Shown: piece after piece, positions 2,645 through 57,448 of the stretch
How the letters are laid out: each line of letters begins with the position of its first letter
How positions within the stretch are numbered: the stretch's first letter is position 1
Assembly: GCA_016201205.1 (NCBI GenBank)
Contig: JACQDF010000034.1
Span: 1 to 64,000, forward strand
From: Acidobacteriota bacterium
GTDB taxonomy: Bacteria > Acidobacteriota > Terriglobia > Bryobacterales > Bryobacteraceae
Direction: 5' to 3'
DNA: 64,000 nucleotides
The notes under the pieces: generated by a model
Seen by the model: the letters and a program-made list of their open reading frames with translations, nothing else
The model's database searches: none
What the model was told of the DNA's origin: nothing
Translations under genes and position numbers: made by a program

Positions 2645-5600
2645 TTAGAACTGCACCCGCATGCCGAACCGCACGGTGCGCAATCCGCCGGCGCCGGTGA
2701 TCGTCATGAAATTGTTTAGCGCCCGGATGCTGCCGTCCGGATTCAGTTGCATATTTGCGGAGCCGGAGTTCGGATTACTCCAGCGCGGCGTATTGGTCAG
2801 GTTGAACGCCTCGGCCCGGAACTCGGCGCGGACCCGCTCGGTGACCACGAATTGCTTCGAAACCATCGGATCCAGCCTCCAGAAGCCCGGCCCGTACAGT
2901 ACGTTCCTCCCCATCGTGCCCTCGCGATAAACCGGGTTGGCGGCGTTGAAGTAGAACAGCGGGTCGCGGAACGAGTTGGGGTCATAGTACGGCTTGCCAG
3001 GACCGCGCTCCTGGTCGATTCTCCTCACTGGCGCGATCTGATCGGCTGTTGACGGGCAGCCGACGCAGCGGACGGCAGTCCCGCTGCCGCTCACCGTAAA
3101 CGGAGTTCCGGTGTACGCACTGAAGATGCCGCTGATCTGCCATCCGCCCAGAACCTTGTCGGCGAGGCCGGTCAGGGCCAGACGCTTGCCTCTGCCCACC
3201 GGAAGCTCGTAGGCCCAAGCCATGGTGAACATGTGCCGCCGGTCGTAGCCCGCAGGAGCGTAATTGCGGCGCAGCTCCGGCTCCCAATTCGAGAAGGCGA
3301 GGCCGGCCCAGCCGTCGTCATCCGCCATGTTGAGCGTCTTCGACCAGGTGTAAGCGCCCTTCAGGAACAAGCCGTGGCCGAAGTTCTTGTTCAGACTCGC
3401 CTGCAAGGCGTGGTAGCTGCCGTCGCCGATGCCGTCCCACATGTTGGCGGAATTGGTGCGGCCATAGAGCTTGCCGAGCGGCAGGTTGGCGGTGAGATTG
3501 AGAGAGGATCCGGGTCCGGCGGTGTTGATGTTGCGATCGAGCAACTGGTGGACCGTCCGGGTGGCGACGTACCCGGCGTTGGCGATGATGTCCAGCGGCA
3601 GCCTTCGCTCGACGATGAAGTTCCACGACTGGATGTAGCCGCGATTGATCTGGCCGCCCCACGGGCTGCGCGGGCCCATGTCGACGTTGAGCGGCAACAG
3701 CAGCGTTCCACTGCCGGTATCCGGTATCGGAACATCCGGAATGCCCTGGTTGAGGGTGTTGAACCATCCGTAAGAGGATTCACGAAACGCGGCGGCAGCG
3801 TCCCCGGCGCTCCAGCCTCCGGTGAGCGTTGCCGGGTACAGGCCGCGCAGCGGGCGCGAGAAAGGCAGCGGGTCATAGGTGATTCCGTAGCCGCTTCGCA
3901 CCACCCAACTGTCTCCCATGCGATAGGCAAAGCCGATGCGGGGCGCGAACAGCTTCTTGCTGACCGTGATTCCGTTCTCACGAGGGACATTTCCGATCCC
4001 GCCCAAAGTGACCACGTTGGTGTAAGGATTCCACCGCTCGATGCCGCGGTCGCCACGGTTGATGAGCGGGTAATACTCGTATCGCAAGCCCAGCGTCAGA
4101 GTCAGGTTGCGGTTCACTTGCCAGCGGTCACGAACGTACCAGGAAAGCTGCCACTCCCGCGTCTGCATCAGCAGGAACTGAATCGACTTCGAGTAGTTGC
4201 TCACCAGGCCAAGCAACGCAGAGGCAAAGCTGTTCGGCTCGCGGCCGGTGACGCCGGGGATGATGGTCGCCCCGCTGCCGAAATTGATGGCCCCGCGCGG
4301 CTGGCCCGTCTCCGGCTGCCAGTGGTTCATCTCGTGGCGGCGCGGCTCGAAGCCCCAGCGCAATTCATGGGGACCCATGAGCTTGCTGAAGTTGGTCTGG
4401 TAGGTGTAGCTGCGATCGTTGCGGGTCAGCGGCGCCCAGGTCGCGTCGACACCCACATTCGAGAATCCGAACCCGGCGATGGGCGGAGGGCCGCCGTAGC
4501 GTTTGTCGCTGGCGTACTGCCGGCCGCCGTTGGTGCCCGGAATCTTCCAAACGTCGAGTCCGATGTTCTTATCGCTGTTCGGTATATCGACAAACTGGTC
4601 AAATCGCGAGTAGCCGAACACGCCATCCATCAGGAGCGTGGGACTGAAGCTGTAGGTGAAGCCGGCCCTGGGAAGCTGCGTCGTGGTATCGCCGAAGCCA
4701 TGGGTGCCCAGCGCAGGACCGCCCAGATCACCGAATAAATACAGACCTTTTACCGGGGCATCCATGCGGCTGTAACTCGACCAGATCACCAGCTTCCCGG
4801 TTGCATTCCAGTTGACCTTCACGTCGTAATTGTTGCGGTCCAGCTTCAAGGTGCCGGCGCCGAAGTAGTTGCCTCCCAGATTGTTGGGGTCGGTCGGCGA
4901 GATCTGGTTCGGCAGCGGCAATTGTCTCTGGATGGAATCGAAGATCGGGTTGAACCGGCTCTTGGGCACGATATTGTTGGGGAACATCTGGCGCTCGGCC
5001 GGTGTCGAGGAAGTCGCGGGGTCGTAGACTCGCGCGTAATTGTTGTTGAGCCATTTGCTGAAGTCACCTTCGCGAAACTCGGGTGGCGCCACCGAGTAGT
5101 TGCCCGAATTCCCGGTCCGCTCCCACGTCTTTTCAAAGCTGAAAAAGTAGAACAGCTTGTCCTTCTTGATGGGGCCGCCGATCGTGCCGCCGCCCTGGTT
5201 GAAAATGGTGAGCGGTTTCACGAACGTCGAGGTGCGAAAGTAAGGCCCCGAGCTCAGGTGCTGGTTGTTGTGGAACCAGAAGCCGCTTCCGTGAAGCTGG
5301 TTCGTGCCGGACTTCGTGAAAACCGTGATCGCGGCCCCGCCGGCCATGCCCTGCTCAGCGTCGAAAGAGCCGGTGGTGATGTTCACGTTCTCAATGCTCT
5401 CCACCGGAGCGACGTATACAGTGTGGTGCGGCAGCCAGATGAAGATGTTGACGGCGCCATCTGTCAGCGTGTTGTTGTTATTGCGCGCCGTGCCGTTGAT
5501 GTTGGTGGTGAGCGCCCGGGCGGGCGTATCCACCACCGCGTTCTGGAAGTCCGCCGGAGTGGCGCCGGGAACCAGATTGATCAGGCTCTGGTAATTGCGG

Positions 5601-9712: not shown

Positions 9713-11070
9713 TGGTTATCTATCTTCCCAGCCAGTCGCTTGATGAAGCCCCGGTGCTCGACGAATTGACGCCGGCCGAGATTGTCCGCGAGCTGGACAA
9801 GTACGTCATTGGGCAAATGGAAGCCAAACGGGCGGTGGCCGTCGCGTTGCGGAACCGCATCCGGCGTCAGCGGCTCGAGCCGGAGATGGCCGAAGAGGTG
9901 ATGCCGAAGAACATCCTCATGATCGGCCCCACCGGGGTGGGCAAGACGGAGATCGCACGCCGGCTCGCCAGACTCGCCAATTCGCCTTTCCTGAAGGTGG
10001 AGGCGAGCAAGTTCACCGAGGTGGGATATGTCGGGCGCGACGTCGAGTCGATGATCCGCGATCTGGTCGAGATCGCCATCGACATGGTGCGCGGCGAGAG
10101 GCTCGATGAAGTGGCCGACCGCGCTGAGCGAAACGCCGAGGAGCGGCTGCTCGATCTGCTGATGCCGCCGCAGCCGGAGCCGTCGGAATCGGTCGAGCGC
10201 ACCCGCGAGAAAGTGCGTGAAAAGCTGCGCGCGGGCAAGCTGGACGACCGCATCGTCGAACTCGATGTCAAGGAGCGCGGCCCGACCTTCGAGGTCACCA
10301 CCAACACCGGCATCGAAGAGATGGACATCAACCTCAAGGAGGTCCTGCCGAACATCTTCGGCGCCCGCACGCGGCGCCGCAAGATGCGCGTGCACGAGGC
10401 GCTCGACTACCTGACCCAGGAAGAAGAGCAGAAACTGATCGACATGGATCAGGTGACGCGGGTGGCGCTGGAGCGTGTCGAGCGCAACGGCATCATTTTT
10501 CTGGACGAGGTGGACAAGATCGCCGGCCGCGAAGGCGGGCATGGGCCGGACGTGAGCCGGGAAGGGGTCCAGCGCGACATCCTGCCGATCGTCGAAGGCA
10601 CCACGGTGAACACGCGCTACGGCTTCGTGCGCACCGACCACATCCTGTTCGTCGCCGCCGGCGCCTTCCACGTCTCCAAGCCGAGTGACCTGATCCCGGA
10701 GCTGCAAGGCCGCTTCCCGATCCGCGTCGAGCTGAGATCGCTGAACGAGCAGGATTTCATCCGCATTCTCAAGGAGCCCAAGAATGCGCTCACCAAGCAG
10801 TACATTGCGCTGATGGAGACCGAGGGCATCAAGCTGGCGTTCACCGACGACGGCCTCGAGGCAGTCGCTCGCTACGCCGCCGAGATCAACCAGCAGATGG
10901 AGAACATCGGCGCCCGCCGGCTTCATACGATCCTGGAAAGAGTTCTCGATGAGATCTCGTTCCAGGGGCCCGACCTGAGAAAGAAAACGGTCAAGATCGA
11001 CGCCGCCTATGTGCGGCAGCAGTTGGCGGACATCGTGAAGGATCAGGACCTGAGCCGCTACATTCTCTGA
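9712..11070 (+). CDS. hslU: ATP-dependent protease ATPase subunit HslU
   Basis: A 452-residue AAA+ unfoldase partner of HslV. The Walker A motif GPTGVGKTE lies at residues 72-80, Walker B is [15 protein letters not shown], the pore loop is GYVGRD, and the C-terminal LSRYIL is the tail that inserts into HslV. The I-domain (about 110-230) is charged and shorter than average in places but complete. Its ATG overlaps the hslV stop (TGATG), and its own TGA overlaps the next gene, so the order hslV-hslU-lipoprotein is translationally coupled. Confidence 0.97.
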
Positions 11071-13946: not shown

Positions 13947-14348
13947 ATGAAGAACTCGTTTTCACGCAGAATCGTGCTTGGGACAGCCGTGCTGGCCATC
14001 GTCGGCTCAGGCGTGCTGCTGGGCGCAAACCAGTATGGCAAGCCAAAGTCCATCATCCATGTGGTGACGCTGTATTACCGGGACGGCGTCACGGCCGCCG
14101 ACAAGAAGAAGGTGCTCGACGGCGTGGAAAAGATGGCCTCCGCGATTCCGGGCATTAAGAATGTCTGGCTGCGCAGCGTCAAGGTGCAGGGCGACGCCGG
14201 CGGCCAGCAGTTGACGGACGCGTTCGTAATGGAGTTTGCCGACGAGGCGGCCTTCAAGGCATACGACAACCATCCGGCGCACCGGGAATGGGAGAAGATC
14301 TACGTCCCGTTGCGCGGCGAGAGCCGCACGCACGACATCACGAACTGA
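13947..14348 (+). CDS. Dabb (stress-responsive A/B barrel) domain protein, membrane-anchored
   Basis: A 133-residue protein with an N-terminal signal or anchor segment (about 9-26) and a ferredoxin-like dimeric alpha/beta barrel domain: IIHVVTLYYRDGVTAADKKK, VKVQGDAGGQQLTDAFVMEF and DHPAHREW-like NHPAHREWEKIYVPL. Dabb proteins are small dimers found in stress proteins and some polyketide cyclases; the role here is unknown. It is the last gene of the hslV operon run. Its final 110 bases with the stop codon are repeated almost exactly at 16431-16555. Confidence 0.82.
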   Translation: MKNSFSRRIVLGTAVLAIVGSGVLLGANQYGKPKSIIHVVTLYYRDGVTAADKKKVLDGVEKMASAIPGIKNVWLRSVKVQGDAGGQQLTDAFVMEFADEAAFKAYDNHPAHREWEKIYVPLRGESRTHDITN

Positions 14349-14363
14349 GAACCGCTTCCTTAC
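14239..14363. repeat. 125 bp direct repeat, copy A (inside Dabb gene 3' end)
   Basis: This stretch covers the last 36 codons of the Dabb gene, its TGA and 15 further bases. It matches 16431-16555 at 123 of 125 positions; the differences are at 14279 (g/a) and 14330 (g/c). Homology stops sharply at both ends. Confidence 0.95.
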
Positions 14364-16430: not shown

Positions 16431-16555
16431 CCGACGAGGCGGCCTTCAAGGCATACGACAACCATCCGGCACACCGGGAATGGGAGAAGATCTACGTCCC
16501 GTTGCGCGGCGAGAGCCGCACCCACGACATCACGAACTGAGAACCGCTTCCTTAC
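16431..16555. repeat. 125 bp direct repeat, copy B (orphan Dabb 3' end)
   Basis: A headless copy of the Dabb gene end with its TGA, 2192 bases downstream of copy A and 123/125 identical. It ends 15 bases before the cspA stop codon. Joining copy A directly to the sequence after copy B would put the Dabb gene and cspA in simple convergence, presumably the ancestral order. The preceding 106 bases (16325-16430) hold nothing recognisable. Confidence 0.95.
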
Positions 16556-31693: not shown

Positions 31694-31771
31694 GCTGGCC
31701 CTCCCGTTGTCCCGGCCATCCGCCGGGTATCATTTGGTGGACGAGTTTTTCACACTGTGAGGCCCTTGTCA

Positions 31772-33793
31772 ATGCGCGAGTGGGCGAAGCGGCTGGCGCT
31801 GATCATCCTTTCGCCATTTCTGTTTCTGGCGCTGCTCGAATCGGGTCTGCGACTGGCCGGCTATGGTTATCCCTCCTCCTTCTTCTTGCCGGCTGGCGGC
31901 TACATGACGACCAACCGCCAGTTCGGCTGGCGCTTCTTTCCCAAACGCATCGCCCGCACCCCTCTGCCGCTTCGCTTTGCCGTCCCCAAGCCTCCCGGAG
32001 TGAGGCGCGTCTTCGTGCTGGGGGAGTCGGCGGCCATGGGGTTTCCCGATCCCATGTTCAGCTTCGCGCACCAGATGCAGGCCATCGCCGGAGGGCGGCT
32101 CGAAGTGATCAACACCGCCATGACAGCGATCAACTCGCACGTCATTCTCGAGATCGCCGAGGAGTGCGCGCGGCTGGAGCCCGATCTCGTTGTCCTCTAC
32201 ATGGGCAACAACGAGGTGGTTGGCCCATTCGGCCCAGGCACTGTTTTTAGCGCTTCGAAGATCGCGGCTGCGCTGAAGCGCTTCAGTCTTGGCCAACTGC
32301 TCTCGCCCGCGCGCCGGGATTTGACCGAGTGGCGGGGCATGGAGATGTTTCTGCGCCGGCAGATCTCAGCCGGTGACCCGCTTCTCGAGCAGGTCTATCG
32401 AAACTTCGGGAACAACCTGACAGCGATCATTCGCGTGGCCCGCGGGGCGGGAGCTCGAGTGATTCTCTGCACAGTGGCCGTCAACCTTCGTGATTGCCCG
32501 CCCTTTGCCGGCGCGGCCGCGGAGGAAAAATTCCGCGCCGGTGATTTTGCCGCCGCCCGCGACCTCGACTTGCTGCGCTTTCGTGCGGATAGCCGGATCA
32601 ATGCCATCATTCGGGACGCCGCCGCCCGCACCGGGGCTTCTCTTGTCGATGTCGAGAAGCTGATCCCGCCCGATAGCACGTCGTTCTATGAACATGTGCA
32701 CCTGCGCCCGCGGGCCAGCCTTCGTCTGGCGGAGGCGATCTTGAATCTCGACGGCGAAGGGTTTGTGCCGTCGGCGTGGGATGAGCACCGTATGGAGCGG
32801 GATATGCACGCGCTGATGGAGCGCCCGCCGTTCAGGAATCAGGGCGGTTTCCGGATGCAGCGCGGTCGCATCGATTTGAACGAGGCGGAGCAGCAGTACA
32901 GCCGGTGGCTCGAGAAATACCCGGAAGACTTGCTGTTGCGCGAGAGATTCGCTGAATTGCTCGCTGAGCGCCGCAAACATGAGCGCGCCGTGGCCGAGTG
33001 GCGCGAGCTGCTGCGCCGTCTTTCCTCCGTTCCCAACTGGCACACCGGGCTCGGTGAATCCCTGCTGGCAGCGGGGCGCCTGCCGGAAGCGCGTGCCGCG
33101 TATGAGCTGGCATGGAAGATCGATCCGCAATTCCTGGCTGCGCACATCGGCCTCGGCGTCATTGCCTTTGCCGAAGGCCGGCTGCCGGCTGCCGAAAAGC
33201 ATTTCCAGGACGCATTGCAGCTTGATCCGCAGTCGCCCGAGGCGAACAACAATCTCGGCCGTTTGCTGGATGCCCAGGGCAGGACGCAAGCGGCGCTGGA
33301 AGCGTTTCGAAAAGCGGTGGCTGCGAAGCCGGAGTTTGCCGAGGCGCACAACAATCTTGGCGTGGCTCTGAGCCGGCAGGGGATGCAGCAAGAGGCACTC
33401 GAGGCCTACCGGGAGGCGGTCCGCATTCAACCCGGCTTCGCCGGCGCCCACTACAATCTCGGGGGCACGTACGCACGCCTCGGCCGCATTGGCGAAGCCG
33501 AGGGGCACTACCGGGCTGCCATCCTGGCTCAACCGGGCTTTGCATCCGCCCACTATGACCTCGGCCTTCTGCTGGCCGGCCAGGGAAAGACCGAAGAAGC
33601 GATTGCGGAATATCGCGAGACGTTGCGCCTGGATCCGGCCAACGCCGACGCCCACAACAACTGGGGCTCCGCACTGGCGCGGGCCGGCCGGATCGCGGAG
33701 GCTGTTTCGCATTTCCAGGAAGCGTTGCGGCTGCGCCCCGGTCATCCGCAGGCGCGCCGCAACCTGGAATCAGCGCGCGCCGGCCGGCGTTAG
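31772..33793 (+). CDS. SGNH hydrolase-like and TPR membrane protein
   Basis: A 673-residue protein. ATG 31772 is preferred over GTG 31757 because GTGAGG lies 9 bases upstream. A hydrophobic N-terminal helix (LALIILSPFLFLALLESGLR) anchors it. Residues about 80-330 are SGNH-like: VFVLGESAAMG for the nucleophile block, VVLYMGNNEVVGPFGPG, and a late HVHLRPRASL with the catalytic-type histidine. The second half is at least eight TPR units (AHNNLGVALSRQGMQQEAL, AHYNLGGTYARLGRIGEAE). Such proteins may modify envelope glycans. The 3' end lies in a 68 bp repeat and overlaps the convergent higA by 4 bases. Confidence 0.85.
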   Translation: MREWAKRLALIILSPFLFLALLESGLRLAGYGYPSSFFLPAGGYMTTNRQFGWRFFPKRIARTPLPLRFAVPKPPGVRRVFVLGESAAMGFPDPMFSFAHQMQAIAGGRLEVINTAMTAINSHVILEIAEECARLEPDLVVLYMGNNEVVGPFGPGTVFSASKIAAALKRFSLGQLLSPARRDLTEWRGMEMFLRRQISAGDPLLEQVYRNFGNNLTAIIRVARGAGARVILCTVAVNLRDCPPFAGAAAEEKFRAGDFAAARDLDLLRFRADSRINAIIRDAAARTGASLVDVEKLIPPDSTSFYEHVHLRPRASLRLAEAILNLDGEGFVPSAWDEHRMERDMHALMERPPFRNQGGFRMQRGRIDLNEAEQQYSRWLEKYPEDLLLRERFAELLAERRKHERAVAEWRELLRRLSSVPNWHTGLGESLLAAGRLPEARAAYELAWKIDPQFLAAHIGLGVIAFAEGRLPAAEKHFQDALQLDPQSPEANNNLGRLLDAQGRTQAALEAFRKAVAAKPEFAEAHNNLGVALSRQGMQQEALEAYREAVRIQPGFAGAHYNLGGTYARLGRIGEAEGHYRAAILAQPGFASAHYDLGLLLAGQGKTEEAIAEYRETLRLDPANADAHNNWGSALARAGRIAEAVSHFQEALRLRPGHPQARRNLESARAGRR

Positions 33794-33830
33794 CGCGAGC
33801 TTGAGGTTCGCCAGCGCGGCTTGGTTGCGG
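33763..33830. repeat. 68 bp direct repeat, copy A
   Basis: It matches 37973-38040 at 66 of 68 positions; the differences are 33780 (c/a) and 33791 (t/c). It encodes the last residues and stop of the SGNH-TPR protein on the plus strand and the last 12 codons of the HigA-like antitoxin on the minus strand. Confidence 0.93.
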
Positions 33831-34110
33831 CTTCGCGAGGCTCGAAGCTGATCAGCAACCGCGATCCGGTCGCATCCGCCAGACGCTCCAGGGTGCGCAT
33901 CGAGGGGCGCACGCGCCCGCTCTCCAGGCGCGCCACGACGGGCTGAGTCGTCCCCATCTTCCGGGCCAGCTCCTCCTGCGTGAGGCCGGCGCGGTTCCGC
34001 ACATCCATCACGGCCGACGCCAGGACGAACTCTTCCTCAAGCGCCTCGTAAGCCTTCCGATACTTCGGCACTTTCATCCACTCCTTGTGCATATCAGATA
34101 TGCGTGCCAT
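33790..34110 (-). CDS. higA: HigA-like XRE-family antitoxin
   Basis: A 106-residue protein with a lambda-repressor-type helix-turn-helix at about residues 33-88 (NRAGLTQEELARKMGTTQPV, VARLESGRVRPSMRTLERLA). The N-terminal 30 residues (MHKEWMKVPKYRKAYEALEE) are typical of HigA antitoxins that follow a HigB toxin gene. The last 12 codons (KPRWRTSSSR) fall inside the 68 bp repeat and look like a tail gained by fusion rather than a family feature. It lies 13 bases downstream of the toxin and overlaps the convergent SGNH-TPR gene. Confidence 0.88.
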   Translation of the reverse strand: MARISDMHKEWMKVPKYRKAYEALEEEFVLASAVMDVRNRAGLTQEELARKMGTTQPVVARLESGRVRPSMRTLERLADATGSRLLISFEPREAATKPRWRTSSSR

Positions 34111-34123
34111 TGCTACACCTCCA

Positions 34124-34447
34124 TCATAGAACCGCTTTCGCGCGGGACAGGGCCAGCTCTATCTCGCGCCGCGGCGTTTTCTCCGTTTTCTTCACGAAGA
34201 CCCGCACGATCACCACGCGCCGGCCGACGGCCGTCACATACAGCGCCCGCGAAATTCCGCTGCGGCCTTTCAGCCGCATCTCTGACAGCCGCCCTTCCAC
34301 ATGCTTGACGTGCGGCTCGCCCACACGCTCCAGGCCCTTTTCCTCGATGAGCTTCGCGATACGCGCCAGCCTCGCCCGCATGTCTTCGGGCAAGGCCTCG
34401 ACCTCCGCGTCAACGGTTTCGTTGAGGGTCTCGACCGTCCAGTTCAT
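34124..34447 (-). CDS. higB: RelE/HigB-family toxin
   Basis: A 107-residue toxin of the HigB/Gp49 (RelE fold) type: EALPEDMRARLARIAKLIEE, GLERVGEPHVKHVEGRLSEM, RLKGRSGISRALYVTAVGRR and VVIVRVFVKKTEKTPRREIE. These mRNA interferases cut ribosome-bound transcripts. The toxin-first, antitoxin-second order is the HigBA arrangement. The frame is intact and the key basic residues of the RelE core (K, R in RLKGRSGISR and KKTEKTP) are present. No ribosome site precedes the ATG; a -10-like element is only 5 bases away. Confidence 0.9.
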   Translation of the reverse strand: MNWTVETLNETVDAEVEALPEDMRARLARIAKLIEEKGLERVGEPHVKHVEGRLSEMRLKGRSGISRALYVTAVGRRVVIVRVFVKKTEKTPRREIELALSRAKAVL

Positions 34448-34461
34448 ATGCTAGTATACCA
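34448..34461 (-). promoter_or_regulatory. Extended -10 promoter right in front of higB
   Basis: On the minus strand TGGTATACT (a TGn-TATACT extended -10) ends 5 bases before the higB ATG, so transcription would start at or next to the ATG. No good -35 is visible. The CATATG around the start is palindromic and could be part of an operator. Confidence 0.45.
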
Positions 34462-34580
34462 CAAAAGATATATATTCCGGGGAGCCATAGAATTGTCCAA
34501 TGCGAGATGGGCCTGAACGGAGGGTTCGTTCCCAATGCGGAGTGAGCCTGAACACGGAGCTGGGCGCGAACCGCCCGGCG

Positions 34581-37500
34581 TCAGAAGCTGTACTTCAACG
34601 CGAACTGGATCTGTCGCGAATCGATCTTCGTCGCGCCAATCACACCATAGGTGGCCGTTCGCAGAGTCGTTCCCGGCGGAGCGAAAATCGGATGGTTTGG
34701 CAGGTTGAAGAATTCGCTGCGGAACTCGATCGTCTGCCGCTCGGCGATGCGAAAGAACTTGTTGGCGCTGAAGTCCAGGGAGATGATCCCCGGTCCGATA
34801 ATCGTATTGCGCCCCGCCGTCCCGTAGCGGAACTCGGTAATCCGGGCCGGATCCTGGCCGAGGCGGTCGACGAAGGCAGCCGTGTTGAAGAAGCGAGTCA
34901 CGCGCTGCTCGCTGTCGGGCAGGTTGGGATTGGCGCCCGCCACGGCATCCGGCTTGCAGTAACCGCCGCCGTTCTGGATGTTGCCTGGCCCGCAGTACGA
35001 GGTCAGCGGGAAGCCGTCCTGGAAGGTAAGAATGCCGCCCAATTGCCATCCGCCCAGCAGGAAATTCGCGAAGCTGTTCCCGCCAAAGTCCACACTTTTT
35101 CCCTTGCCCAGGGGTAGCTCGTAGAGGAACGAAGCGGTGAGACGCTGGCGGAAGTCGAAGGCGGAGAGACCGCGCTCGGCGCGGAGGTTGTAGTTATCGG
35201 ACGGAGTCAGAGCATCCCCGTCGGTTGTGCGGATGCCGGATCCGTTGTCGATCGACTTGCCGTACGCGTAAGAGCCGAGGACGGTGAAGCCGTGAGAAAA
35301 GCGGTGCTGCAAGCGGGCCTGCAAGGCGTGATAGGTCGAATGGCTCGGCGCGTTCATGTTCTGGAAGCTGCCATTGAATTTCGGGAACGGCCGGTTGAGG
35401 TTGGGATTGCCGGGCCGCGGAAATGGATTGTTGTAGGAGGTCAGACGGCGAAGTTTGACGCCGCTTGAACCCATATAGGTGACTTCGAGCGACATGTTCC
35501 CGGTCAGCTCGCGCTGCACCGAAGCCTGCCATTGATCGACGTAGGAGGTACGTTCGCCAAACTGATTGATCAGCAGGAAGCTGGGCGCGCCAACCGCCGT
35601 GAACGGCCGCTCCCAATTCAAGTTGGGGCGCGTCGTATCGGCTGTTTCGGCCTGTCGGATGGTGAAGGGAATGTTGCGAACGACGTCGAAGACCGCGTTG
35701 CCGATGTCGCGGACAAAGTAAACCCCGCCGCCGGCCCGGAAAACGGTCTTGGAATTGAGCTGATAGGCAATGCCGATCCGGGGGCCGAAATCGTTGCGGT
35801 CGGGCGCGCCGGCGCCGCGACCGAAGCGGCCATCGCGTGTATAGAGCCAGCCGGGCGGCGGCGGGAATTGCGGGTTGCCAGCAAAAGGATCCCCGGCGCC
35901 GGCGCGGACGAAGACCGGCTCGCGCGAGTTGTCCCAGGCGAAATCGACGTTCACGATGGCGTCGTGCTTATCGTAGTAGGGGGATTCATACTCCCAGCGC
36001 AGACCCCAGTTGAGCGTCAGCTTCGGCGTGATTTTCCAGGTGTCCTGGATATAAACGCCGATGTAGCTCTGGCGGAAGTTGGCGATGGGCGCCCCAACCT
36101 GGCCCTCGGAGGCGCTGAAATAGCTGAGCAGCATGTCCGCCATTGGGTCCCCCGCATACTGGCCGTTCCAGGAGAAGCGGCCGCGCGGGACGACGGCCCC
36201 GATCTGGTTGTAACGCAGGCGGCGATACTCGCCGCCGAACTTGAGGGAGTGCTTGCCGGTGGTCCAGCCGAAGTTGTCGGTGAGCTGGAACGTCGTGTTC
36301 CAGTTCACAAACGGGCAATCGTTGCACTCGCCGACGTTGGAGAACCCGCTGATCTGGAAAACGGGGATACCCCAGTAGAGCGGGTCCTGGGAAACGCCGG
36401 GGATCCTGAGCTCGTTGACAACGTTGCGGACAAAAGCCCGCTGCTGGATATTGGCCGACTTGAAGTAGTTCATCCCGAACTTGAACTCGTTCACCTTGTT
36501 GGCGCCCATCACAGCCGTGTGGCCGAGCACACCCTGCTGTCCGAGGATGTCCACGTTGTTGCCCATGTTCTCGATGTTGAAGGGGATGTATTGCGGCTCC
36601 TGGGTCTGGGAGAAGCGGAAGAAAAAGGTGTGGTTGCGAACGGCCGTCAGGTCACCTCGCGCCGTGACCTGATCGCCGTCCGAGCGGCGGCCTTCGTTGT
36701 TGAGGTAGTTGTTGCCCAAGCCGAGCGCGCCGGTGCCGGGGCGGTTCGGGAGGGGATAGAAGTCCTGGAGCACCTTGGCCGAAGTCGCGTGGATGCGGCT
36801 TTGCGGAATGATGTTGCCGGCAAACGGCTGGCCGTTGAGCGGATCGCGGATCTGCCGCGGGATTTGCGACAGGTCGCCGCGGCGATAGCCGGCCGGCGGC
36901 AAAGTGCCGGCCTGCGTCAGCGCCTTCCGCTCGCGCAGTCCTTCGTAGTTGAACAAAAAGAACAGCTTGTCTTTGCCGTTGTAGAGTTTCGGGATCAGGA
37001 CAGGTCCGCTGAAGGTGCCTCCGAATTGATTCCGCTTGAAGGGCGGAATCGGGTCGTTCGGGCGGTCGAAGAAATTCTTTGCATCGAGCTTGGCGTTGCG
37101 GAGAAATTCGAACGCGACACCGTGAAAGTCGTTCGTGCCGGACTTGGTGGAAACGTTCACCTGCGCGATCGCACGGCCATACTCTGCCGAGAAGAGGCCG
37201 CTCTCGACCTTGAATTCCTGGAGCGCATCAATGGACGGCAGGAACAGATAGGTGTTGAAGTTCTGGTCAGTGTTCTCCATCCCGTCGAGCGAGTAGTGAT
37301 TGAAGTGCACTCGCTGGCCGGCGACGTTGAGCGCGAACTGGTTGCGCGCGCCGCCCATGCGCTGCTGGCCTTGCGAGGAAGCGGGGCCGTTGGTGGTCGC
37401 GCCGGGGATCAACGACGCCAGTTGGAGATAATTCCGGCCATTGAGAGGGAGTTCGACAATCCGCCGGTTTTCAATTACCGTGCCGACCGAGGTCGATTCC

Positions 37501-37877
37501 GTCTCCAGCACGGGCGCCAGGCCCGTGATCTCGACCACTTCGGCGACGTTGCCGACTTTCATGGAAAAATCGATACGCGCCACCTGGCCGACCTGCAATT
37601 CGACCCCATTGCGGACCTGGCTTTGAAACCCCTGTATCTCCACCCGGAGGTTGTATACGCCGGGCGGCAGCGCCGAAACGACGTAGATGCCGTTGCCGGT
37701 CGAGACAACCGAGCGCTGGACATTGGTGGCCGGGTTGGTGACGGTGACGGCGGCCCCGACGACGACGGCGCCGGTCGGGTCGGTCACGGCGCCCGTAACC
37801 TCGCCGGTCGGCGCCTGGGCGAACAGAAGAGCCGTCAGGCCAAGCAGCAGGACAGAAACGGAGCAGGGTTCATGCAT
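34581..37877 (-). CDS. TonB-dependent receptor with carboxypeptidase-regulatory domain
   Basis: A 1098-residue receptor. The ATG at 37877 follows GGGAGA and opens a signal peptide (SVSVLLLGLTALLFAQ); an upstream in-frame ATG at 37913 lacks a ribosome site. The regulatory domain (GEVTGAVTDPTGAVVVGAAV) covers about residues 20-105, the plug contains NVSTKSGTNDFHGVAFEFLR, and the barrel ends IQFALKYSF. It sits with higBA inside the 4.2 kb segment bounded by the 68 bp repeats, so it may have arrived with it. The 133 bases between it and higB (34448-34580) hold only the higB promoter. Confidence 0.94.
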   Translation of the reverse strand: MHEPCSVSVLLLGLTALLFAQAPTGEVTGAVTDPTGAVVVGAAVTVTNPATNVQRSVVSTGNGIYVVSALPPGVYNLRVEIQGFQSQVRNGVELQVGQVARIDFSMKVGNVAEVVEITGLAPVLETESTSVGTVIENRRIVELPLNGRNYLQLASLIPGATTNGPASSQGQQRMGGARNQFALNVAGQRVHFNHYSLDGMENTDQNFNTYLFLPSIDALQEFKVESGLFSAEYGRAIAQVNVSTKSGTNDFHGVAFEFLRNAKLDAKNFFDRPNDPIPPFKRNQFGGTFSGPVLIPKLYNGKDKLFFLFNYEGLRERKALTQAGTLPPAGYRRGDLSQIPRQIRDPLNGQPFAGNIIPQSRIHATSAKVLQDFYPLPNRPGTGALGLGNNYLNNEGRRSDGDQVTARGDLTAVRNHTFFFRFSQTQEPQYIPFNIENMGNNVDILGQQGVLGHTAVMGANKVNEFKFGMNYFKSANIQQRAFVRNVVNELRIPGVSQDPLYWGIPVFQISGFSNVGECNDCPFVNWNTTFQLTDNFGWTTGKHSLKFGGEYRRLRYNQIGAVVPRGRFSWNGQYAGDPMADMLLSYFSASEGQVGAPIANFRQSYIGVYIQDTWKITPKLTLNWGLRWEYESPYYDKHDAIVNVDFAWDNSREPVFVRAGAGDPFAGNPQFPPPPGWLYTRDGRFGRGAGAPDRNDFGPRIGIAYQLNSKTVFRAGGGVYFVRDIGNAVFDVVRNIPFTIRQAETADTTRPNLNWERPFTAVGAPSFLLINQFGERTSYVDQWQASVQRELTGNMSLEVTYMGSSGVKLRRLTSYNNPFPRPGNPNLNRPFPKFNGSFQNMNAPSHSTYHALQARLQHRFSHGFTVLGSYAYGKSIDNGSGIRTTDGDALTPSDNYNLRAERGLSAFDFRQRLTASFLYELPLGKGKSVDFGGNSFANFLLGGWQLGGILTFQDGFPLTSYCGPGNIQNGGGYCKPDAVAGANPNLPDSEQRVTRFFNTAAFVDRLGQDPARITEFRYGTAGRNTIIGPGIISLDFSANKFFRIAERQTIEFRSEFFNLPNHPIFAPPGTTLRTATYGVIGATKIDSRQIQFALKYSF

Positions 37878-37972
37878 GAGAGTCTCCCAAATACGACGGA
37901 CAGGATGATCCAAACCGTTTAGGTGAGACTATCAAGAAGCCGTACGGGGCCGCAAGCTGCCCTTATTTTGCG

Positions 37973-38040
37973 CCTGGAATCAGCGCGCGACGGCCGGCGT
38001 CAGCGCGAGCTTGAGGTTCGCCAGCGCGGCTTGGTTGCGG
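37973..38040. repeat. 68 bp direct repeat, copy B (inside cytochrome-TPR 3' end)
   Basis: 66 of 68 positions match 33763-33830. Here it forms the last 19 codons (minus strand, ending LKLALTPAVAR) and stop of the multiheme cytochrome-TPR gene, plus 7 bases beyond. Confidence 0.93.
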
Positions 38041-39575
38041 GGATCGATCGCCAGCGCTTGCCGGAACATCCTGACTGCTTCCGCTTTTTCTCCCTTGTGC
38101 GCCAGCAGCGCTCCCAGATTCACGTACGCTTCCGGCAGATCGGGGTCGGCCATCATCGCCGCTCGGAGATCCGCTTCGTCACCGCGGGCTGTCCCCAGCA
38201 GAGTGAGCAGAAACGCATCGCGTGGCGCATGTTTCAGCCCTCCCAGGATCGCCTCGAGATTCGGGTACTCGACCAGCGCGAGTCCCCGCCACGCTGGAAC
38301 GAGCGACGGCATCTTGGCTAACGCTTGTTGATAGTGCGCCACTGCTTCGGGCTTGCGGCCTGTCTTGCGGTACGCCTCCGCCAGATCGCAGTGAAATTCC
38401 GCGCGCGGAAACCCGGCCGCCAGCCTCTGCAACCGAACCACGCCCTCGCCGAGATTCGCTGCGTCGCGCACCTGGGCCAACGCCAGGTAGAGCTTGTCGA
38501 TCACCGGCGGATAGTAGGCAGCCACCCGGCCCGCGTACTCCGGCAGTTCCGAGGGATCTTGCGCGTCGGGCTTTCGCTGAATCCGGTGGTCCGTCATCGT
38601 CGTGAGCCGTGCATCTTCCGGACGCCGCCTGGCCATGTGACAGCCGGCGCAGTCTTTCTCCTTGTGGTGGGCGGTCCGATGGCAGCTCGGGCAGGCGTTT
38701 TTCACCGTTCGCGCATGCGGATCGTGGCAAGTGGTGCAGCTCATCCGCCCTCTGCTGTTGAGAAAACATGCCGACTTTCGCAGCCGGTAGGGTGCGCTGA
38801 CGACTTCGAACTTGTCTCGATAAGCGCCGCCGGCCGGATGATCGAAGTGCACCATATAGTTTTCGAGCGGCTCGCCCGGCCGGTAGCTGAACATCCCGCG
38901 GCCATAGCGGCGGATGGAATGGGGCAGCGGGTGAGACGTAGTCTCCAGATGGCACTGCATGCACAGCTCCATCTGCCGTGCCCAGGAGAGCGTCTTCGGA
39001 TTGAGGATCGTACCGCGGCGCGGGTTGCTCAGATGCTTGTCCGCCGTTCCATGACACCGCGCGCAATCGACGCCCTCCGGCAGCGGATCGAGATAGAGCG
39101 GATCGCTCTCATCGCCGCCCGGCGTGCCGGGATAGGCATTGTGGCAAAAGAAGCACTCGTAGTTGATCTTCCGTCGAAAATCCACGTGGTCCGGCCGGTC
39201 GTAACCGGGCGCCATTTGCCAGAACCCGCCTTTTTCCGCATACCAGGATACCGGCATCGCCAGCAGACGCCCTTCGGACGTGCGGTGAACGTAGCTCCGC
39301 GCATGGTTGCCGGAGCCGAGCACGTAGTGGAGCTCCTTCTCCATGACGCCGTCGGCGTGTTCGCGTCGCATGTAAAACCTGCCCTCGCGTTCAGTCATGA
39401 TGAACCAGCTCTTTGAGGGCGCATGAAAGAAGCGGTTGCGTTTTGCGAAATCCTCCACTCTCGTTTCTTGCGTCAGCGCGAAAAAGGAGCGACCCATGCC
39501 CGTCCGCGCATAGGAATCGACGATTGCCTGGTGACAAGGAGTGCACGCCAGCATGGCGGCCAAGGCGAACGCCAT
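37980..39575 (-). CDS. Seven-heme c-type cytochrome with TPR repeats
   Basis: A 531-residue protein. Seven CxxCH heme-binding motifs are visible: CTPCH, CFFCH, CARCH, CMQCH, CTTCH, CPSCH and CAGCH, the first at residue 11 directly after a very short hydrophobic N-terminus (MAFALAAMLA). The C-terminal third (about 370-525) is TPR-like (AEFHCDLAEAYRKTGRKPEA, LPEAYVNLGALLAHKGEKAE). It is presumably periplasmic or surface-facing and electron-transferring; multiheme-TPR proteins are frequent in Acidobacteriota, but their partners are unknown. The signal peptide is short for such a protein, so the true start might lie slightly upstream. Confidence 0.88.
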   Translation of the reverse strand: MAFALAAMLACTPCHQAIVDSYARTGMGRSFFALTQETRVEDFAKRNRFFHAPSKSWFIMTEREGRFYMRREHADGVMEKELHYVLGSGNHARSYVHRTSEGRLLAMPVSWYAEKGGFWQMAPGYDRPDHVDFRRKINYECFFCHNAYPGTPGGDESDPLYLDPLPEGVDCARCHGTADKHLSNPRRGTILNPKTLSWARQMELCMQCHLETTSHPLPHSIRRYGRGMFSYRPGEPLENYMVHFDHPAGGAYRDKFEVVSAPYRLRKSACFLNSRGRMSCTTCHDPHARTVKNACPSCHRTAHHKEKDCAGCHMARRRPEDARLTTMTDHRIQRKPDAQDPSELPEYAGRVAAYYPPVIDKLYLALAQVRDAANLGEGVVRLQRLAAGFPRAEFHCDLAEAYRKTGRKPEAVAHYQQALAKMPSLVPAWRGLALVEYPNLEAILGGLKHAPRDAFLLTLLGTARGDEADLRAAMMADPDLPEAYVNLGALLAHKGEKAEAVRMFRQALAIDPRNQAALANLKLALTPAVAR

Positions 39576-52686: not shown

Positions 52687-52761
52687 GCCAGTGCAAAGAT
52701 CATTAAATCTGCAATCCTCATGTTTCGATCGCGCACCCCATCCAATCAGGAGGAAAGCGCT

Positions 52762-53013
52762 GTGTCTGAATATCACTACACGGTCTTGTTTGAGCCGGCT
52801 GAAGAAGGCGGCTATGTGGCCACGTGCCCGGCGTTGCCAGGGCTCGTAACCGAAGGCGACACGCTGGAAGAAGTCCGCGCCATGGCCCAGGACGCTATCC
52901 GCGCCTATCTGGAAAGCCTGCGAAAAGACGGCCTACAGCCGCCGCCTGACAAGAAGCTTGCCCTTGATCCGGTGAAAGAGGAAGTGAGCGTTGCAATTCC
53001 CGAACCGGCATGA
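52762..53013 (+). CDS. hicB: HicB-family antitoxin
   Basis: An 83-residue HicB: VSEYHYTVLFEPAEEGGYVA at the start, TCPALPGLVTEGDTLEEVRA with the partial RNase-H-like fold, and DAIRAYLESLRKDGLQPPPD. The GTG at 52762 follows AGGAGGAAAG at normal spacing. The C-terminal DNA-binding extension found in long HicB is absent, so this is the short type. Its stop overlaps the ATG of a broken hicA (ATGA). Antitoxin first and toxin second is one of the known orders for hicAB. Confidence 0.85.
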   Translation: MSEYHYTVLFEPAEEGGYVATCPALPGLVTEGDTLEEVRAMAQDAIRAYLESLRKDGLQPPPDKKLALDPVKEEVSVAIPEPA

Positions 53014-53179
53014 GCCAGCACCTGACTCCACTGGCAGTCACCACGTCCTCAAGCATCCTGATAATCCGGCCCTGCGCGTGACGCTGGCCATGCACAACCG
53101 CGACCTCAAACGGAAAACGTTGATGTCCATCATTGATCAGGCCGGGTACTCGGTGGAAGAGTTTCTGGGCCTGCTGTAG
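53010..53179 (+). pseudogene. hicA: hicA toxin with internal deletion and frameshift
   Basis: The frame starts MSQHLTPLA, coupled to hicB, as expected for HicA (MSxxLPxLTxxEVxxxL). From 53037 the correct continuation is in a different frame: GSHHVLKHPDNPALRVTLAM and HNRDLKRKTLMSIIDQAGYS to VEEFLGLL, which is the HicA C-terminal two-thirds with its catalytic histidine (GSHH). About 20 codons (the EVIRxLxxxGF helix) and a frame are lost between. The product is a 23-residue peptide, so the toxin is dead while the antitoxin stays intact. Confidence 0.78.
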
Positions 53180-53520: not shown

Positions 53521-53612
53521 ACGTACACCCGCTTCACCCGCTTCACCCGCGCACTGATGCTGCACAGCACCGAATAGGTGATGGTGCCGGCTGCCTTCGC
53601 CAGTTGCCGCGC
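53521..53612. repeat. Direct repeat copy A: duplicated 3' end of alr
   Basis: It corresponds to 56349-56431 with two substitutions and one extra 9-base unit (TTCACCCGC doubled). Read on the minus strand it encodes the last residues of alanine racemase, TYSVLCSISARVKR..RVYV, with its own in-frame stop. It is directly followed by truncated transposase sequence. Confidence 0.93.
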
Positions 53613-56344: not shown

Positions 56345-57448
56345 TTAAACGTACACCCGCTTCACCCGCGCACTGATGCCGCACAGGACCGAATAGGTGA
56401 TGGTGCCGGCTGCCTTCGCCAGTTGCCGCGCGTCCTGCGCCACCTCCGCTTCCGCCCCGATGATGGTGACCGCATCGCCAGGTTCGAGATGCGGAGCATG
56501 GCTGATGTCAATGGTGGTCAGGTCCATCGAGACGGCGCCGAGAATGGGAGTCAGCCTGCCGGCGGCGATCACCTTCCCTTTGTTGGAGAGCCGGTGCGGA
56601 AGCCCATCGGCGTAACCGATGCCGAGCACGGCAATCCGCATGTCCCGCGGCGAAGTGAACATGGCTCCGTAACCGATGCGGGCGCCGGCCTCGATCTCCT
56701 TCACCAGCACGATGGACGCCTTCCATCTCAGCGCGGGCTTCACTTCAAACAGCGGTTTGGGCGCATCGCCCTTGCCAGGCGTCCAGTAGCCGTAGATGGC
56801 GATCCCCGGGCGCACCATGTTGTACCAGGCGCCGCGGCGGGCCAGCATCACAGGATTGGTCGACGCAACATGCGTGTAAAGCGGCTCGACACCCGCCCGG
56901 CGCAAATCTTGGCGCAGCTTCTCGAACTGCGCGATCTGTTGTTCGGTCTGAAAGGAGGTGTAGTCCGCCGACGAAGCGAAGTGCGTCATCAGTCCTTCCA
57001 GACGCGCTGGAGCGCCGGCCCGCACGGCGGCTGCGATTTCTTCCGCCGAAGCCTGTGTCCCCAGCCGCCCCATTCCTGTGTCTGCCTTAAGGTGATACCC
57101 GATGGGGCCGAGACCGCCGATCTCATTCAGCGAGTGCACGGCCGGCGTCAGCTCGTATTCCCGCAGCTTCTCACGTTCCCACGGCAGCACGCCGCCCATC
57201 ACAAGGATGCGAGCATCGATCTGGGCCAGCCGCAGAGCCATGCCTTCGTCGACGCTCGAGACCGCCAGCCAGCGCACCCCCTCGGCAATCAGGATCCTCG
57301 ACACCTCGACGGCGCCGTGGCGGTAGGCGTCCGCCTTCACGACGGGCATCACCTCGACCACTGCGCCGACGGCCTGCTGGATCGAGCGGTAGTTGGCGGC
57401 CAGTTGCTCGCGGGAAATTTCGACCCAGCAGCGCAGAGCCCCGCTCAT
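56345..57448 (-). CDS. alr: Alanine racemase
   Basis: A 367-residue PLP enzyme that makes D-alanine for peptidoglycan. The PLP lysine is Lys38 in VVKADAYRHGAVEV; the family consensus is KANAYGHG, so the usual glycine is Arg here. The catalytic tyrosine is in RIGYGAMF, and the C-terminal domain has GAVSMDLTTIDISHAP and a normal YSVLCGISARVKRVYV ending. The ATG overlaps the stop of the glycosyltransferase upstream (ATGA). Its last 80 bases are duplicated at 53521-53612. Confidence 0.93.
   Translation of the reverse strand: MSGALRCWVEISREQLAANYRSIQQAVGAVVEVMPVVKADAYRHGAVEVSRILIAEGVRWLAVSSVDEGMALRLAQIDARILVMGGVLPWEREKLREYELTPAVHSLNEIGGLGPIGYHLKADTGMGRLGTQASAEEIAAAVRAGAPARLEGLMTHFASSADYTSFQTEQQIAQFEKLRQDLRRAGVEPLYTHVASTNPVMLARRGAWYNMVRPGIAIYGYWTPGKGDAPKPLFEVKPALRWKASIVLVKEIEAGARIGYGAMFTSPRDMRIAVLGIGYADGLPHRLSNKGKVIAAGRLTPILGAVSMDLTTIDISHAPHLEPGDAVTIIGAEAEVAQDARQLAKAAGTITYSVLCGISARVKRVYV
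56349..56431. repeat. Direct repeat copy B: native alr 3' end
   Basis: This is the resident copy of the sequence repeated at 53521-53612. It covers the C-terminal residues of alr (minus strand), stopping just short of its TAA at 56345-56347. Confidence 0.93.

Follow-up and report, generated by a model that had tools for sequence, protein, structure and literature searches.

The question raised by this locus is how a HigB/HigA toxin-antitoxin operon (higBA) and a TonB-type receptor gene came to lie between two nearly identical 68-bp sequences, each of which forms the end of another gene. The locus belongs to a 64,000-nucleotide stretch of an acidobacterial genome (hereafter the window), which is part of contig 21 in a draft of 392 contigs. 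The genes on either side code for an SGNH-TPR protein and a multihaem cytochrome-TPR protein (Table 1). Our analysis indicates that the 4142 bp between the two copies were inserted into the junction of these genes with duplication of 68 bp of the target, and it reveals an excess of toxin-antitoxin genes among the inserts of this type in the same genome.

Sequence comparison bore out that the two copies match in direct orientation at 66 of 68 positions, with a start-to-start spacing of 4210 bp (second copy, E = 6.8e-26), and that they are the 3’ ends of the SGNH-TPR gene (left) and the cytochrome-TPR gene (right), as proposed in a sequence-only reading of this DNA. That reading had also placed the last 12 codons of higA within the left copy, where we indeed find codons 95–106 and the stop. 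The search for the repeat elsewhere that it called for returned no third copy in the genome draft (7.0 Mb, 94.3% complete), the missing sequence leaving room for one. At the first mismatch (33780; C left, A right), one residue is altered in either reading. The second (33791; T left, C right) falls within the SGNH-TPR stop codon TAG (33791–33793), which is absent from the right copy, and is silent in the cytochrome frame. Hence the prediction that excision would leave both stops intact stands only in part, since it holds if the left-copy base at 33791 is kept and fails if the right-copy base is kept. Each copy retains what its complete neighbour gene requires, and both mismatches are thus compatible with a constraint that was relaxed once the stretch had been duplicated. 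This is the pattern that would be expected if the duplicated stretch had formerly served both genes, with a change at 33780 that may have gone in either direction.

Both flanking proteins were then sought in 151 genomes, including the genome of the window. The cytochrome-TPR family was found at E 1e-40 in 80 of them and the SGNH-TPR protein at E 1e-60 in eight, and we read the surroundings of the SGNH gene in all seven genomes other than our own. An uninterrupted convergent SGNH-TPR/cytochrome-TPR junction is present in three relatives, with the genes overlapping by 18 bp in G064 and lying 7 bp apart in G098 and 4 bp apart in G104. The two genes are divergent in G053, and no cytochrome gene was found within the stretches read around the SGNH gene in G007, G010 and G034. 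Moreover, once the flanks of the window are joined at the 68-bp repeat, they can be aligned continuously with the junction of G064. Together, the three empty junctions and this unbroken alignment indicate that 4142 bp were inserted with a 68-bp duplication. The comparison spans genus-to-order distances and was made, among the inserts of this genome, for the 33763–38040 locus only. It upholds the earlier proposal that the segment is an insertion, for which an uninterrupted junction was to be looked for in relatives, and that the duplication flanks a toxin-antitoxin operon. An old vertical inheritance of the gene order was not supported, given the empty sites in three relatives and the lack of HigB (E 1e-12) in all 11 other genomes of the genus.

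The window holds two further direct repeats at gene ends, of 125 and 78 bp, and we therefore scanned the genome more widely. The longer one (14239–14363 and 16431–16555, 98% identity) duplicates the 3’ end of a Dabb-domain gene and encloses 2.07 kb of gene debris, including a C-terminal piece of an FAD-oxidase and other fragments; a small convergent gene just past it has the look of what we take to be a cold-shock gene. The shorter one (53535–53612 and 56354–56431, 97%) consists of two copies of an alanine racemase 3’ end; the 2.74 kb between them contain one piece each of a vitamin transporter (Vut_1) and a DDE transposase, and a HicB/HicA pair (52720–53179) lies just outside.

In a sample of 1,032,193 bases, made of the window and at most 20 kb each of contigs 1–20 and 22–81, repeats with gaps of 300–10,000 bp gave 23 direct rows versus 3 inverted ones, the direct rows corresponding to 18 places. 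We kept 15 of these as inserts. Locus L064 was dropped because both arms lie in one long frame with internal repeats, L143 because its arms form the opposite ends of a single contig, and the second pair of L138 because its right arm lies inside a long frame running into the gap. The last choice counts against our own reading, since a PIN gene lies in that gap. L143 itself (contig 57, 3390 bp, with identical ends at 1–140 and 3251–3390) may represent either a small circle of about 3.25 kb or an overlap left by the assembly.

Nine of the 15 kept inserts hold a Pfam match above cut-off to a toxin-antitoxin family: HigB with a helix-turn-helix antitoxin (window), Fic (L048), PemK plus a ParE match broken by a stop (L051), HicB (L068), PemK with a ribbon-helix-helix gene (L070), Zeta (L085), PIN with MazE (L128), BrnA (L152) and PemK barely above the cut-off (L153). 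The Fic and Zeta families have other roles too, and excluding both leaves seven of 15. The inserts thus form a set in this genome that is rich in toxin-antitoxin genes, which the sequence-only reading had not foreseen.

We measured this enrichment with four families (PemK, PIN, ParE and HicB) searched genome-wide and blind to the repeats, which gave 10, 40, 15 and 23 places, respectively. Eighty places are above the Pfam cut-off, 19 of them in the 1.03-Mb sample; matches below it (two PIN, one ParE and five HicB) were omitted, including a PIN match on contig 64 that lies, uncounted, inside the L150 insert. Five of the 19 genes fall within the 15 kept inserts, which cover 2.59% of the sample, versus 0.43 expected (P = 6e-5, taking the places as independent and within one genome). 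When neighbouring genes are counted once, four of 17 clusters are inside versus 0.39 expected (P = 4e-4), and when all repeat gaps are allowed, six of 19 genes are inside versus 0.61 expected by random placement (P = 5e-5). Since HigB is not among the four families, the finding in the window does not feed the test. Toxin-antitoxin genes are therefore in excess inside the inserts of this genome, a result with which retention and mobility are both compatible.

Table 1. Position, strand and content of the features at the higBA locus of the window
Feature	Position	Strand	Remarks
SGNH-TPR gene	31757..33793	+	TPR repeats; Lipase_GDSL_2 just below cut-off
Left copy, target duplication	33763..33830		Plus strand, SGNH-TPR 3’ end; minus strand, stop of higA and the 12 codons before it
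higA antitoxin, HTH_3	33790..34110	-	C-terminal tail coded by target sequence
Inserted segment, 4142 bp	33831..37972		Missing from the homologous junction of three relatives
Part common to 15 higBA loci, promoter region included	33831..34473	-	Ends vary by up to about 15 bp depending on the locus
higB toxin, Gp49 family PF05973	34124..34447	-	84.2 bits, cut-off 23.9
TonB-type receptor gene, CarboxypepD_reg and OMP beta-barrel domains	34581..37877	-	Start given by our own gene finder; longer frame from 37913
Right copy, target duplication	37973..38040		Cytochrome-TPR 3’ end
Multihaem cytochrome-TPR gene	37980..39575	-	Gene finder and domain matches

The three genes of the insert lie on the same strand. 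Two of them, higA and higB, are adjacent and match their families above cut-off (54 bits for HTH_3), and on these family matches they are classified as a type II toxin-antitoxin pair. Gene finding, with a script of our own that small genes may escape, and domain searches found no recombinase, transposase or integrase gene among the insert genes. There is no tRNA in the window either, and an RNA element was rejected there, as no Rfam family matched at gathering score. Forty-five other matches to the insert in the genome are pieces of at most 368 bp with 65–88% identity, which we read, from their positions in the insert, as TonB paralogues.

The other inserts vary widely in the length of their duplications, from 42 to 231 bp and probably also about 1.1 kb, and in 16 inserts examined we found neither inverted ends above the level of shuffled ends nor a shared end motif. 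The longest case is the VapBC-like L128 (contig 42, 4007–6149), where the PIN and MazE-type genes are flanked by uvrA, complete on one side and present as an orphan fragment on the other, the duplicated sequence being the 5’ part of uvrA (UvrA domains). The orphan matches two uvrA pieces joined at a 3-bp overlap. In the complete gene, these pieces are separated by 0.9 kb, so that the original duplication probably measured 1.1 kb or more and shrank later; the event looks recent because the arms are 99–100% identical. Both in L048 (contig 1, 3544–6255) and in L068 (contig 22, 1693–3713), one repeat copy is interrupted with an 8-bp overlap at the break, owing either to a later insertion with an 8-bp duplication or to a deletion between 8-bp repeats. 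On contig 33, we also noticed an 82-bp tandem duplication (L079, 7327–7490; 98.8% identity, gap 0). Searching the unclear small frames against NCBIfam gave nothing above cut-off. Among our loci, L100 8329–8643 may resemble the end of a zeta toxin and L152 938–1216 a resolvase.

To see how far higBA has spread, a four-sequence HigB alignment was run against one genome per species (GTDB 220 collection). At least 214 HigB relatives were confirmed, and we analyzed the best 80 of them. Fifteen of these 80 loci share 77–87% DNA identity with the window over 33830–34486 only, that is the operon of about 640 bp; some of the remaining loci match the window DNA more weakly. The titles of the 15 records name Acidobacteria, Alphaproteobacteria, other Proteobacteria, Nitrosospira, Acidiferrobacter, Truepera and Methylomirabilota, single placements being possibly wrong because most are metagenome bins. 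Each of the 105 pairs among the 15 loci aligns in the higB region, the median match running from -25 to +610 relative to the start of higB, and homology extends much further than the operon in one pair (L183/L178). As the homology stops at the operon edges, higBA travels without fixed neighbours, and these alignments indicate that the bare operon spreads between phyla. The HigB proteins of L171–L187 are about 90% identical to that of the window under titles such as Alphaproteobacteria, Acidiferrobacter, Nitrosospira and others, which may reflect either recent inter-phylum spread or misbinned contigs. In an alignment read by eye, the window HigA runs into target-coded residues, and several of the 15 loci have a short tail and a stop there.

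The receptor gene has a different history. HigB was found in 33 of the 151 genomes, our own included, and relatives of the TonB gene with 76–77% identity are present in four of the 11 other genomes of the genus, none of which has HigB. The receptor is thus native to the lineage, to which higBA is new. Only one relative (G044) has both genes above our limits, on different contigs, with TonB sought in 101 genomes and HigB in 151. Likewise, among the best 80 HigB loci a TonB match at E 1e-20 occurs in L185 and L191 only, with 26–35% identity. The view of higBA and the TonB gene as one conserved unit is consequently rejected, since higBA travels alone and the receptor has genus-level orthologues without it. 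As for the window, the two may have arrived together or apart, the sequence being compatible with both.

Outside this genome, the clearest single case is L190 (9802–10757), from a metagenome-assembled genome of Puniceicoccaceae (Verrucomicrobiota), in which higBA alone (680 bp) lies between 138-bp copies (95% identity) of the end of an MFS-type transporter gene. Its higB lacks ATG, GTG or TTG at the aligned start, the first ATG being at 10067, so that the gene is possibly damaged or uses another kind of start. Other repeat-flanked inserts in the set of HigB loci hold Fic with a VbhA antitoxin (L238), DUF433 (L194) or UPF0175 (L215). In L185, HigB lies between the arms, the left one of which is overlapped by a UPF0175 gene. 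We also scanned control stretches of three genomes, which gave 0 direct and 1 inverted row in 200 kb (G094), 9 direct, 7 of them less than 600 bp apart, and 0 inverted in 400 kb (G007), and, for G150, 34 direct rows and 12 inverted ones in 200 kb, a few stretches accounting for many of them. Direct repeats alone are thus not special to our genome.

Taking these observations together, we consider it likely that the 4142-bp piece with higBA and the TonB gene was inserted by repair with a 68-bp duplication and retained by addiction. According to this model, the convergent SGNH-TPR and cytochrome-TPR genes, with overlapping ends, would have been opened at their junction, and the piece carrying higBA and the lineage-native receptor gene would have come to lie in the gap. 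Both flanking genes would have retained their ends because 68 bp of the junction were copied in the process. Repair of a staggered break, or template switching during replication, could capture foreign or displaced DNA between the copies in this way. The variable length of the duplications, the lack of inverted ends or a shared motif and the lack of a recombinase favour such a repair or template-switching origin over a transposase or an integrase, and the presence of a Ku gene in the genome would make end joining possible. Repeats as long as these, in direct orientation, would be expected to promote deletion. A toxin that penalises loss by recombination between the repeats could then explain why inserts with toxin-antitoxin genes are over-represented without any mobility of their own.

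Several observations weigh against this reading. No empty allele of the same species was seen, and neither a donor nor a second copy of the insert was found elsewhere in the genome. Among the 15 kept inserts, six yielded no toxin-antitoxin gene, namely the two other window inserts, L067 (transketolase halves), the first pair of L138, L139 and L150. In the 80 HigB loci (1.13 Mb), direct repeats straddle HigB in four, one of which (L206) is full of repeats, versus 2.8 expected by position, and inverted repeats do so in one versus 0.5 expected. Straddling direct repeats are hence not in general excess in this sample, a set that is an unfair background because it was chosen for HigB. Finally, other pairs of loci lose their higBA homology at about this codon as well (at the median of +610), so that the coincidence of the homology edge with the repeat edge is weak evidence alone.

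Other histories could lead to the same structure. It is conceivable, if rather unlikely, that higBA entered by itself, giving rise to the 68-bp duplication, and that the TonB gene was added later by an event leaving no repeat, as L190 shows higBA alone between copies of a gene end, higBA travels without TonB, and the TonB gene, but not higBA, is native to the genus. Such a history would require that another event hit precisely the space from higBA to the right copy, and the two TonB edges are not joined by any exact match of at least 8 bp. We regard as improbable that a circle carrying the 68-bp sequence, either a plasmid or an excised copy, was integrated by single-crossover homologous recombination. 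The final structure would be the same and the two mismatches could then be strain differences, but each insert would need its own carrier, because the duplications stem from different genes and differ in length, and there is no third repeat copy in the genome.

An integrase with attL/attR sites or a transposon is a very improbable source of the repeats. Insertion at a gene end with direct repeats does resemble attachment sites. However, the insert has neither a recombinase gene nor a tRNA gene nearby in the window, and the very different duplication lengths and featureless ends described above speak against a site-specific element. In particular, a 68-bp duplication without a transposase or inverted ends is not that of an insertion sequence or transposon, which duplicate a short target of fixed length, and the lack of an integrase in the insert and of a tRNA, a frequent target, in the window speaks against an integrative element. 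Least of all do we expect an assembly artefact, which a draft in so many contigs might suggest, given that the two differences between the copies match the separate constraints on two genes, that HigA has a target-coded tail and that comparable arrangements are present at other sites of this genome as well as in a second assembly (L190).

Insertion with long target duplication has been reported for Helicobacter pylori restriction-modification genes (Nobusato et al. 2000, cited in PMC3874152 and PMC1643837), and the excerpts of PMC3874152 give an order of 100 bp for the target duplications that accompany the insertion of some restriction-modification systems. Such an insertion is not stated there, in the same excerpts, for other toxin-antitoxin systems. 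Our locus resembles these cases, as far as the excerpts describe them, by a long duplication of variable length in that order, an uninterrupted target in relatives, an addiction-type gene pair inside and no known mobile element. It differs from them by a type II toxin-antitoxin pair instead of a restriction-modification system, by its acidobacterial host, by the many inserts in one genome and by a comparison made at genus-to-order rather than strain distance. We therefore call it a variant, because the insert holds higBA and a TonB receptor gene and not a restriction-modification system. With known higBA-type operons it shares the family matches, the toxin-first order, the patchy distribution and an occurrence on plasmids too, and it departs from them by a HigA that ends in target-coded residues. 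In the literature searched on repeats or target duplications flanking toxin-antitoxin genes, with subscription papers mostly outside it, we found one report, on Mycoplasma mycoides, of a toxin-antitoxin pair with direct repeats on its flanks, which the authors take for scars of past recombination (PMC8562856); unlike here, the accessible part of that report describes no target duplication or empty site. In a survey, as excerpted, toxin-antitoxin pairs are described as mobile (PMC2701414).

It has long been asked by what route toxin-antitoxin operons reach chromosomes when no transposase is involved, and what keeps them there; target duplications mark single entries. Tentatively, and with somewhat less than even confidence, we suggest that small toxin-antitoxin operons of many unrelated families might settle by insertion with long target duplication, without a recombinase, and persist by punishing repeat-driven deletion; of the 19 genes of four families in our sample, five, about a quarter, would then still lie between target copies that can be recognized. 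A direct prediction is that inserts flanked by direct repeats should disappear frequently, except where a functional toxin-antitoxin pair lies within them. Should the excess be borne out elsewhere, addiction modules of both the restriction-modification and the toxin-antitoxin kind would have long target duplication as a common entry route. The insert of this soil bacterium and the other repeat-flanked toxin-antitoxin genes thus hint at how small selfish pairs may settle in chromosomes.

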